Positions 31,211-34,289 of a stretch of DNA of 34,398 nucleotides are shown here, one piece after another. The position numbers and the translations under genes were made by a program. The stretch lies in assembly GCA_030951025.1 (NCBI GenBank), contig JAUZQK010000106.1:1-34398 (forward strand), written 5' to 3'. Numbering within the stretch: the first letter of the stretch is position 1; each line of letters starts with the position of its first letter. The DNA is from Mariprofundus sp. (GTDB taxonomy: Bacteria > Pseudomonadota > Zetaproteobacteria > Mariprofundales > Mariprofundaceae). Below the pieces are notes generated by a model. It was given only the letters and a program-made list of their open reading frames with translations. It ran no database searches and was not told the origin of the DNA.

Positions 31211-31656
31211 ACGCGGTGGTAGGGGTGTCCCTGAATAATGGTAAAAGCTCGGTACAATTGCTCCAAGACTACGGCGCGAACCAGTTGGTGCGGCAGGGTG
31301 AGTTTGGATAAGCTCCAGCAGGCAGCTGCTTTTTCACGCACACTATCGTTCAAGCCATCTGCACCACCTATGACAAAATCCTGCTGCGCATCACCAGTTA
31401 ATCGACCCAGATAATCAGCCCAGCGGGTGCTGCCATGCATTGCCCCGTGTTCATCAAAGATAATAAAGCCCTGCCGCGCCTGTTGCAAAATGTGTTTACC
31501 TTCTTGCTGTTTGCGCTGTGAAACCTGTTTGCCACGGCCTTCAGGCAATTCAATCACCTGGCAGGCGGCAAAGGGTTTAAGGCGCTCGATAAAGCGCGCC
31601 TCAAAATCAGACAATTCTTTTGATCCCCGCCCAACCACGAGCAAACGCAGTTTCAC
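31207..31656 (-). CDS. rlmH: 23S rRNA (pseudouridine1915-N3)-methyltransferase RlmH
   Basis: Methylates pseudouridine 1915 in helix 69 of 23S rRNA. The 149-residue SPOUT-family protein has the start KLRLLVVGRG, the central FIIFDEHGAMHGS, the SAM-binding knot FVIGGADGLNDSVRE and the C-terminal LYRAFTIIQGHPYHR. I chose the GTG at 31656 because it overlaps the preceding stop codon as GTGA and places KLRLLVVG at the N-terminus, as in relatives; a start further upstream would add unrelated residues. It is coupled to rsfS upstream, a conserved rsfS-rlmH pair, and to envC downstream. Confidence 0.95.
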   Translation of the reverse strand: MKLRLLVVGRGSKELSDFEARFIERLKPFAACQVIELPEGRGKQVSQRKQQEGKHILQQARQGFIIFDEHGAMHGSTRWADYLGRLTGDAQQDFVIGGADGLNDSVREKAAACWSLSKLTLPHQLVRAVVLEQLYRAFTIIQGHPYHRV

Positions 31657-32663
31657 GATGTCTCGGTATTGCCATGTGGTGCAGACCATAAACGTTCAAG
31701 TTGAAAACTTTCGCGGGCATCTGGCAGAAACAAGTGCACAATCACATCACCCAAATCAACCAATAGCCATTCGGCCGCTTCCAAGCCTTCTACTTTGGCT
31801 GGCATTTCAAAGCGGTGTGCCACTTCACTGACTGATTTGGCCATGGCTTTGAGCTGGCGATTGCTGCGTCCACTGGCCAAAATAAAGCGGTCGGCAAAGT
31901 CGCAGCGGCCACGTACATCAATGACCAATATATCCTGTGCTTTGATATCTTCCAACGCTTCAACGAGTTGGCCGGTGAATATTTCATTTTTTTCTACTGT
32001 TGTCATGTTCCGTTCCTCTGTTCTATACTGTTTTTCAATATCCGATTGCAGCACTTTAGGCACTAAATCTGCGAAAGACAGCCCCAGTGCAGCATGCTTG
32101 CGAATCATTGTTGCCGAAATGTCCGGCAATGTCACCGCTAGCTCGCAACAATGGCCTGCTGTGATGCAAGATTTCCAATGCTGTAATGTGGTGCTTTTCC
32201 AACCCTCAAGCGCTTGCTGAGCATGTCTGGCGCTATAGTCCTGGCGTGCAAATACAGCAATATTGCATAGCTCTTGATGGGCTGGATATTCCTGCCAGGA
32301 TGTTAAACCATCCCAGGCATCGCTGCCCAACATCAGCCATGGCACGGTATCCGGAAAGCGTGTTTTGAATTGACGCAAGGTATCCACCATCGCGGTGGCT
32401 TGCTCTTGTTGCACTTCCCAATCTAGTACTCTTACCCTGCTTTGATGCTGAAAGACTCGCTCCATCCAGTCTAAACGCATCGCACCATCAGCATTGCCGG
32501 AAAGCACCCGATGCACAGGCATGGCTGGTATCACCCACACCTCATCCAGCCCCATAATATCGAGCCCAGCCTGCACCAAAGCCAGATGTCCAAGGTGCGG
32601 AGGATCAAAAGAGCCGCCAAACAAACCAATGCGGCGCGTGGATCTGATCTGCATGGTATTCAT
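31653..32663 (-). CDS. nadD-rsfS: NadD-RsfS fused reading frame: nicotinate-mononucleotide adenylyltransferase and ribosomal silencing factor
   Basis: One uninterrupted frame of 336 codons covers two normally separate genes. Residues about 1-210 are NadD, which adenylates nicotinic acid mononucleotide in NAD synthesis. The nucleotidyltransferase motif GSFDPPHLGH and the second motif ISATMIRKHA are intact. Residues about 220-336 are RsfS, which binds L14 and keeps ribosomal subunits apart during starvation; landmarks are FADRFILASGRSNRQLKAMA and WLLVDLGDVIVHLFLPDARESFQLERLW. No stop codon separates them, but a good internal ribosome site and ATG at 32006 could also produce RsfS alone. The ATG at 32663 is taken as start with AAGGAG 12 bases upstream. 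Its end overlaps the rlmH GTG. Confidence 0.88.
   Translation of the reverse strand: MNTMQIRSTRRIGLFGGSFDPPHLGHLALVQAGLDIMGLDEVWVIPAMPVHRVLSGNADGAMRLDWMERVFQHQSRVRVLDWEVQQEQATAMVDTLRQFKTRFPDTVPWLMLGSDAWDGLTSWQEYPAHQELCNIAVFARQDYSARHAQQALEGWKSTTLQHWKSCITAGHCCELAVTLPDISATMIRKHAALGLSFADLVPKVLQSDIEKQYRTEERNMTTVEKNEIFTGQLVEALEDIKAQDILVIDVRGRCDFADRFILASGRSNRQLKAMAKSVSEVAHRFEMPAKVEGLEAAEWLLVDLGDVIVHLFLPDARESFQLERLWSAPHGNTETS
32004..32019 (-). promoter_or_regulatory. Internal ribosome-binding site and start codon for a separate RsfS
   Basis: On the minus strand AGAGGA (32014-32019) lies seven bases before an ATG (32004-32006) in the fused nadD-rsfS frame. Initiation there would give a 117-residue RsfS of normal family length. 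This decides whether the fusion is obligatory or optional. Confidence 0.6.
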
Positions 32664-32810
32664 ATCGGCATGCTGCTCCTTAAAAGCAGCCACTCTATCG
32701 ATCAACAGCGGTGGAGCAATTTTGTTTTTGCCTGCTGTTCAAGAAGCAGTAGCTCCAGAATGAGGCGACCTGGACACGAAAGCCCTCTCCTACAGTTGAG
32801 GGAAAATAGT

Positions 32811-32848
32811 CACCCTATCATCAAGTTATAAAAGCCTGGTAGCGTTTA
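32811..32848. repeat. Diverged copy of part of the right-end repeat, at the 3' end of hepT
   Basis: These 38 bases match 33931-33968 with about five differences, including the shared core ATCAAGTTAT and AAAGCCTGG. They include the hepT stop codon and its last seven codons. The homology joins the end of hepT to the end of one direct-repeat copy 1.1 kb away. Confidence 0.7.
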
Positions 32849-33242
32849 TTACTGCATCTGTAAACAGCAGCAAATCATCCAGACCCGATTCGATAACAGC
32901 CTGAATGACAGCAACTTCAATATCCTGATGCTGATGAATCACAATGTTTCGAAAGCCAACCATGCGTTGCAGATTCTCAGACAAGCTGTCTGAAATCAGC
33001 CCTGCTTTTGCGAGCAGGGCAAAAGATTCCCGACTTTCATTAGGTATTCCCAGCTTACGGGTTTTAATCACCACATTGGCAAGATCAATGGCTTGTTCAC
33101 AAGCGCGGGTAATATTCAGGATTGCTGCATCCTGTCGGCTAAAGTCTTGGGAGAAGTTATCCCCTGCCAGTTGAAATTCTTCCTTAGCACGCTTGATACA
33201 GCGCTGGATGCTTTGAATTTTATTGATCATGACATCGTTCAT
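32826..33242 (-). CDS. hepT: HepT-like ribonuclease toxin (HEPN domain) with altered HxY motif
   Basis: The toxin of a type VII HepT-MntA toxin-antitoxin pair, an all-helical HEPN RNase that cleaves RNA when free. The 138-residue length is normal. The catalytic motif of the family is RX4HxY; here it reads R98-N-I-V-I-H103-Q-H105. Arg and His of the nuclease site are kept, but the tyrosine is His (codon CAT at 32928-32930). In characterised pairs that tyrosine is the one the antitoxin AMPylates to silence the toxin. The start overlaps the mntA stop (ATGA). Its last codons are shared with a repeat further right. Confidence 0.88.
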   Translation of the reverse strand: MNDVMINKIQSIQRCIKRAKEEFQLAGDNFSQDFSRQDAAILNITRACEQAIDLANVVIKTRKLGIPNESRESFALLAKAGLISDSLSENLQRMVGFRNIVIHQHQDIEVAVIQAVIESGLDDLLLFTDAVINATRLL

Positions 33243-33667
33243 ATTCGGATGGCTCGCCCGCTTGCATAAAAGGATTGTAAAATATCGGCACGCTCCTCAT
33301 TAAGCTTTTGATAGTAGGATATGGTCAACATTTCAAACTCATCGGCAGCATTATTATCTGCACAATAAATGCGCTGCTCAGCACTGATCACTTCTTTTTG
33401 CAATACAGTCGAGACCTGACGCAGATTAATCAGATCGATGTTTTTAGAGAACAGCTTTTCAAGCGCTTGATGCAAAGGCGTGGTATAAAGACCACTCAGT
33501 TTCCGGGCTTCCTGAACTGGAAAAAGTAAAGCGATATCAATATCGCTTGATGCTTTCTCATCAACTGTAGCCCATGAACCAAATAAATAGATCGCTTGGA
33601 TGAAGGGCAAATGAGCCAGGCAGGTTTGAATCAGCTGTTGCTTTTCATGGTTAACTACAAAGCCCAT
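33239..33667 (-). CDS. mntA: MntA-like nucleotidyltransferase antitoxin
   Basis: The antitoxin of the pair: a minimal nucleotidyltransferase that, in studied systems, transfers AMP from ATP onto HepT. The 142-residue protein has the GSX10DXD motif complete, G30-S31 to D42-I43-D44 in LFGSW and SDIDIALLF, and a third Asp candidate in KNIDLINLRQ. The enzyme should therefore be active. The ATG at 33667 is preferred because AGGAG lies eight bases upstream; a GTG nine bases earlier overlaps that site. It precedes hepT with an ATGA overlap, the usual antitoxin-first order. Confidence 0.9.
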   Translation of the reverse strand: MGFVVNHEKQQLIQTCLAHLPFIQAIYLFGSWATVDEKASSDIDIALLFPVQEARKLSGLYTTPLHQALEKLFSKNIDLINLRQVSTVLQKEVISAEQRIYCADNNAADEFEMLTISYYQKLNEERADILQSFYASGRAIRI

Positions 33668-33701
33668 CGAATCCACTCCTCTTGTATTATTTCAATATTT
33701 A

Positions 33702-33749: not shown

Positions 33750-34011
33750 TCCAAACACTGCGCCTTTTATTTCAGGATTAACATCGCGGAATCAATTCCC
33801 AAGTGCAACTCCAGCGAGTTGAGTTTTGGTGCTGAAGAACACTTCATGGGTCGTTCCGGGAAACCCCGCTCGCAGCTTTTTTGCTGCTGCTTTAAACCCA
33901 CCACCAGCCTCCCCAGCCCAAAATATAATCATCCTATTATCAAGTTATGAAAGCCTGGCACCGTTTACAGTTATTTTAAACAACTCAACAACTCATGCCA
34001 GACCCCATCAT
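33750..34011. other. Non-coding stretch left of the transposase remnant
   Basis: It contains a small hairpin, CAACTC-CAGC-GAGTTG, at 33806-33821 followed by a short T run, the first copy of the 69-bp direct repeat, and a diverged relative of the hepT 3' end at about 33931-33985. An open frame starting at 33826 reads through all of it but has no protein-like composition before the transposase part. Confidence 0.6.
33878..33946. repeat. 69-bp direct repeat, copy 1
   Basis: Identical over 69 bases to 34221-34289, in the same orientation. It begins TTTTTGCTGCTGCTTTAAAC and ends with TATTATCAAGTT. The two copies flank the transposase remnant at a start-to-start distance of 343 bases. Confidence 0.95.
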
Positions 34012-34220: not shown

Positions 34221-34289
34221 TTTTTGCTGCTGCTTTAAACCCACCACCAGCCTCCCCAGCCCAAAATATAATCATCCTATTATCAAGTT
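34221..34289. repeat. 69-bp direct repeat, copy 2
   Basis: Perfect second copy of 33878-33946, starting 12 bases after the transposase remnant's stop codon. After TATCAAGTT the sequences of the two copies diverge completely. Confidence 0.95.

Follow-up and report, generated by a model that had tools for sequence, protein, structure and literature searches.

The window, by which we mean the whole 34,398-base stretch of DNA analysed, is one complete contig from a 2.2-Mb draft genome (163 contigs, 92% completeness). An mntA-hepT module was found approximately 0.7 kb from the contig end (Table 1). Both frames were intact and overlapped by ATGA; a GTG at 33676 was also open as an alternative start of mntA. 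By sequence, the two proteins belong to the HepT and MntA families. HepT scored 139 bits against the NF047751 HepT_toxin profile (cut-off 60) and 85.9 bits against PF01934 (cut-off 23.5), and MntA scored 97.7 bits against NF047752 (cut-off 60). NF047751 and NF047752 are the curated NCBIfam equivalog models for the type VII toxin and antitoxin.

Table 1. Features of the mntA-hepT module and its flanks (positions in the window)
Feature	Position	Strand	Remark
hepT, HEPN ribonuclease toxin	32826..33242	minus	138 aa, no tyrosine
mntA, MNT adenylyltransferase antitoxin	33239..33667	minus	ATG start
Codon CAT = His105	32928..32930	minus (plus-strand atg)	position of the AMPylated tyrosine
RX4H RNase motif, R98-N-I-V-I-H103	32934..32951	minus	intact; sequence and alignment
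MntA catalytic motif GSWATVDEKASSDID (GSx10DxD)	33536..33580	minus	intact
46-nt repeat copy covering last hepT codons and stop	32803..32848		second copy 33922-33967 (85%)
Upstream flank with 69-nt perfect direct repeat	33878..34289		copies 33878-33946 and 34221-34289
ORF with DnaA-type C-terminal helix-turn-helix	33826-34289	plus	match in C-terminal part

The module lay upstream of nadD-rsfS. Relatives for which this upstream region was read had other genes in it, and the most closely homologous modules were located at different places in their genomes, indicating that the module moves. In the window nadD and rsfS formed one uninterrupted open frame of 350 aa (31653-32705, minus strand). In most relatives of the genus the two were divided by a stop or lay in separate frames, and one (G002) also lacked the stop. 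The 46-nt repeat flanked the module on both sides, its inner copy supplying the hepT stop, as if the module had been joined to or inserted into a repeat element. The 69-nt repeat of the upstream flank occurred within the genome at its two listed places only. The ORF in this region is presumably the tail of a REP-associated transposase, and the flank looks like a mobile-element relic. A promoter search upstream of the module gave nothing above chance.

The acceptor position and the rest of the two proteins

The motif stretch MVGFRNIVIHQHQDI within the hepT ORF (33242-32826, minus strand) placed HQH at HepT residues 103-105. When HepT was aligned along its length with the PDB entries 5yep/6m6u (124 bits), H105 fell under Y104 of SO_3166, confirming the claim of a preliminary description of this DNA that the toxin lacks the tyrosine modified by MntA. 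Codon 105 was TAT, TAT and TAC in the three nearest homologues and CAT in the window, showing that one T-to-C transition accounts for the change of Tyr105 to His. The two closest homologues (72% identity) each had one tyrosine, that of the motif; HepT in the window had none, so that Tyr-AMPylation is impossible anywhere on the protein. A second tyrosine as substitute acceptor was thus ruled out. The idea that neutralisation proceeds through another residue was left with residues other than tyrosine, and the Ser/Thr closest to position 105 in sequence were S88 (17 residues off) and S119 (14 residues off). Since the acceptor tyrosine of RX4HxY was absent, the sequence alone does not justify classing the pair as a functioning type VII system.

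The same reading would arise if the true codon were TAT and one base had been miscalled in sequencing or assembly, or came from a minority variant. The difference was a single base in one draft assembly, and the module lay near a repeat-rich contig end. However, the rest of both frames was clean, and codon 104 was also privately different from relatives (Q for E), so the stretch differed at more than one base. Single substitutions of such a kind are also rare in assembled contigs, and we regard an error at this base as very improbable.

The remaining functional residues were retained. R98 (codon 32951-32949) and H103 (codon 32936-32934) were read in both the hepT ORF and the alignment, and the MntA active site was complete with G33-S34, D45, D47 and the third Asp, D81, in agreement with what had been stated earlier for both proteins. 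The C-terminal region of MntA, including the alpha-4 helix, was also conserved. All HepT columns with at least 75% conservation were kept except at the acceptor Y105, at position 57, where Val replaced His, and at positions 101, 102, 112 and 116, where the swaps were conservative; V57 and I102 were also present in the closest homologues. R71, the counterpart of the Shewanella residue R70 that contacts the first AMP, was kept. An AlphaFold2 model of HepT reached a pLDDT of 92.9 and a pTM of 0.87, and its best PDB matches were 6m6u, 7bxo, 5yep and 6m6w (rmsd 1.2-2.3 A), the last being a Y104A mutant. The overall pN of hepT to the nearest homologues was 0.17-0.21 against a saturated pS, indicating purifying selection on hepT in general. 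The dN/dS ratio was rejected for dating the Tyr-to-His change because synonymous sites were saturated, and with no homologue closer than 72% identity the change cannot be dated. No second lesion that would mark hepT or mntA as dead was found in the two genes.

Occurrence of the substitution among HepT proteins

A survey for HxH variants had been proposed, and it returned none: the DNA pattern VG[FL]RNx[AV][IVM]HxH, which covers the VG[FL]RN context only, had 4 matches in 84,980 species genomes, and no HepT was among them. The same pattern with Tyr had 46 matches in 398 genomes of the window's phylum, and the reversed control pattern had 0. When a looser pattern accepting Tyr or His was applied to 369 genomes of the gammaproteobacterial-type class of genome G139 (a class name that we inferred), all 34 matches carried Tyr. 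For the Tyr pattern, the denominator over the whole collection was extrapolated, at several percent of genomes and hence in the thousands. A recurrent HxH subfamily was also sought in genome and viral contigs and rejected, as the 13 pattern matches were all chance or unrelated frames. Virus-borne relatives were found neither by the Tyr pattern nor by alignment.

The motif was read residue by residue in 91 distinct collected HepTs, a set outside which stand 48 plasmid records of relatives. Tyr was kept in 81 of the 82 distinct HepTs encoded beside a GSx10DxD MntA (54 of 55 before a second, pattern-based sample joined), the window being the sole exception. His at the acceptor position occurred among the 91 only in the window and in L115, an unpaired copy in which the entire HepT motif was lost. 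Besides the window, three HepTs were tyrosine-less (L012, L109 and L115), and all were without a complete MntA, indicating that the tyrosine goes when MntA goes, the window excepted. In L109 the acceptor position was Cys and the catalytic Arg was lost too. L012 (1483-1938, genome G095) was an orphan HepT, intact except that Asp had taken the acceptor position (HxD); its mntA was deleted to a short tail (REGTIHGR) upstream, whereas mntA is complete in the window. As far as these sequences go, a tyrosine-less HepT beside a complete MntA is not ordinary family variation. The Tyr-to-His substitution is apparently private to one genome or lineage and looks like a private loss, not a new class.

These counts bear on the proposal that MntA AMPylates His105 through a phosphoramidate link, so that covalent control would be kept via a new acceptor. 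Such a reaction would fit the retained catalytic motif of MntA and an acceptor position whose residue is nucleophilic, unlike Ala or Phe. However, HxH was neither common to relatives nor recurrent in any HepT of the collection, which counts against His AMPylation as an established strategy and left histidine modification, one of the mechanisms suggested at the outset, unsupported by recurrence. Judging by side-chain size, the reach of His would also be shorter than that of Tyr, and no paper on histidine AMPylation was found in the library searched. We therefore consider modification of His105, although conceivable as chemistry, improbable.

Characterized pairs and the likely state of the module

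The Shewanella oneidensis pair SO_3166/SO_3165 (5yep, 6m6u, 6m6v, 6m6w, 7bxo; PMC7641770) shared families, gene order and fold with the pair in the window; RX4H and GSx10DxD were intact, and the HepT proteins were about 46% identical. In Shewanella, however, the acceptor is Y104, which receives three AMPs (PMC7641770), whereas it is His105 here, and the nearest laboratory equivalent of the window's toxin is the engineered Y104A (6m6w). The Y104A toxin was toxic, was not AMPylated and was neutralised less well, yet it still complexed with MntA, and binding was found to be insufficient for neutralisation (PMC7641770). The Legionella pneumophila HEPN-MNT pair (8xdj, 8xeh) likewise has the HEPN fold, with an RX4HxY toxin that is AMPylated at Y105 by MNT and is not modified when mutated to Y105A (PMC11586414). 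It differs from the pair in the window in its remote sequence, in the presence of the Tyr, in its RNase site, which has been placed at Q44/E47 with Mg2+, and in an MNT without the alpha-4 helix, which MntA has here. A third HEPN/MNT pair (7ae2-7ae9) also has an AMPylated toxin of the same fold (TM-score about 0.83) at 18% identity. Its entries are listed as di-AMPylated HEPN(R102A), mono-AMPylated HEPN(R46E) and HEPN(H107A-Y109F) with MNT; the natural HEPN has the acceptor Tyr, unlike HepT here.

The locus is probably best explained as an ordinary module of the type VII family in which a private T-to-C change of Tyr105 to His ended Tyr-polyAMPylation, leaving MntA to act by binding only, with the module tolerated and probably in early degeneration. 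A single transition from TAT to CAT in one lineage would have left HepT without a tyrosine, and MntA would then be unable to silence it by Tyr-polyAMPylation. HepT may keep its RNase fold and potential activity, and MntA may still use its conserved C-terminal (alpha-4) region to bind the toxin, restraining it non-covalently and more weakly than a covalent modification would. Control by binding alone, which the preliminary description had listed as an option, is plausible in view of the Shewanella Y104A toxin, which remains toxic and in complex with MntA, with reduced neutralisation. As binding was insufficient in Shewanella, selection should work against a toxic HepT that escapes AMPylation. 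The favoured explanation would therefore need a toxin that is weak, silent or unusually well bound. The pair would persist because its toxin is bound by MntA, of low activity or expressed at a low level, and decay would be its likely future.

If the pair were functional, with MntA either modifying the histidine or purely binding despite its intact nucleotidyltransferase site, one substitution would have naturally switched the chemistry of neutralisation; we think this unlikely. Since Tyr was kept in every other HepT beside a complete MntA, the window offers a natural Y-to-H experiment that could show cleanly whether coexistence requires AMPylation or binding suffices. Automatic 'type VII toxin' calls, such as the one obtained here at 139 bits, do not consider the mechanism-defining residue. 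The case concerns one private mutation in a draft genome and as such is a curiosity, not a new system.

About a quarter of the other hepT copies in the same bacterial family were visibly damaged. In L005 (1495-2273, genome G013, same genus) a TAG directly followed the acceptor Tyr codon of hepT and a deletion ran through DxD of mntA, so that the module was doubly broken. A TGA interrupted hepT in L020, hepT was truncated in L028, and the catalytic His was lost in L014 and L015. Such frequent damage to hepT or mntA is consistent with a toxin in the window that was already harmless (inactive or not expressed), so that control by MntA was unselected and the acceptor Tyr drifted away, leaving a young pseudogene pair. 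The adjoining mobile-element relics, the repeat copy over the hepT stop and the failure to find an upstream promoter above chance point the same way. Against this stand the intact frames with their ATGA overlap, the intact RX4H and GSx10DxD motifs and the lack of a second HepT lesion at a conserved residue, and we hold such a pseudogene pair to be possible but doubtful. The earlier suggestion of a defective toxin thus drew support from the decay common in the family and none from other lesions in hepT itself.

No other PF01934 gene was present in the genome as a second HepT target of MntA, and a search of the genome with PF08780 gave no match. At the end of one contig (G000:C134:4-72), a stretch of 23 residues matched PF05168 (HEPN) and is possibly a piece of another HEPN gene, and a second MNT-type gene (G000:C162:5615-5863) is possibly a piece of another HEPN/MNT gene.
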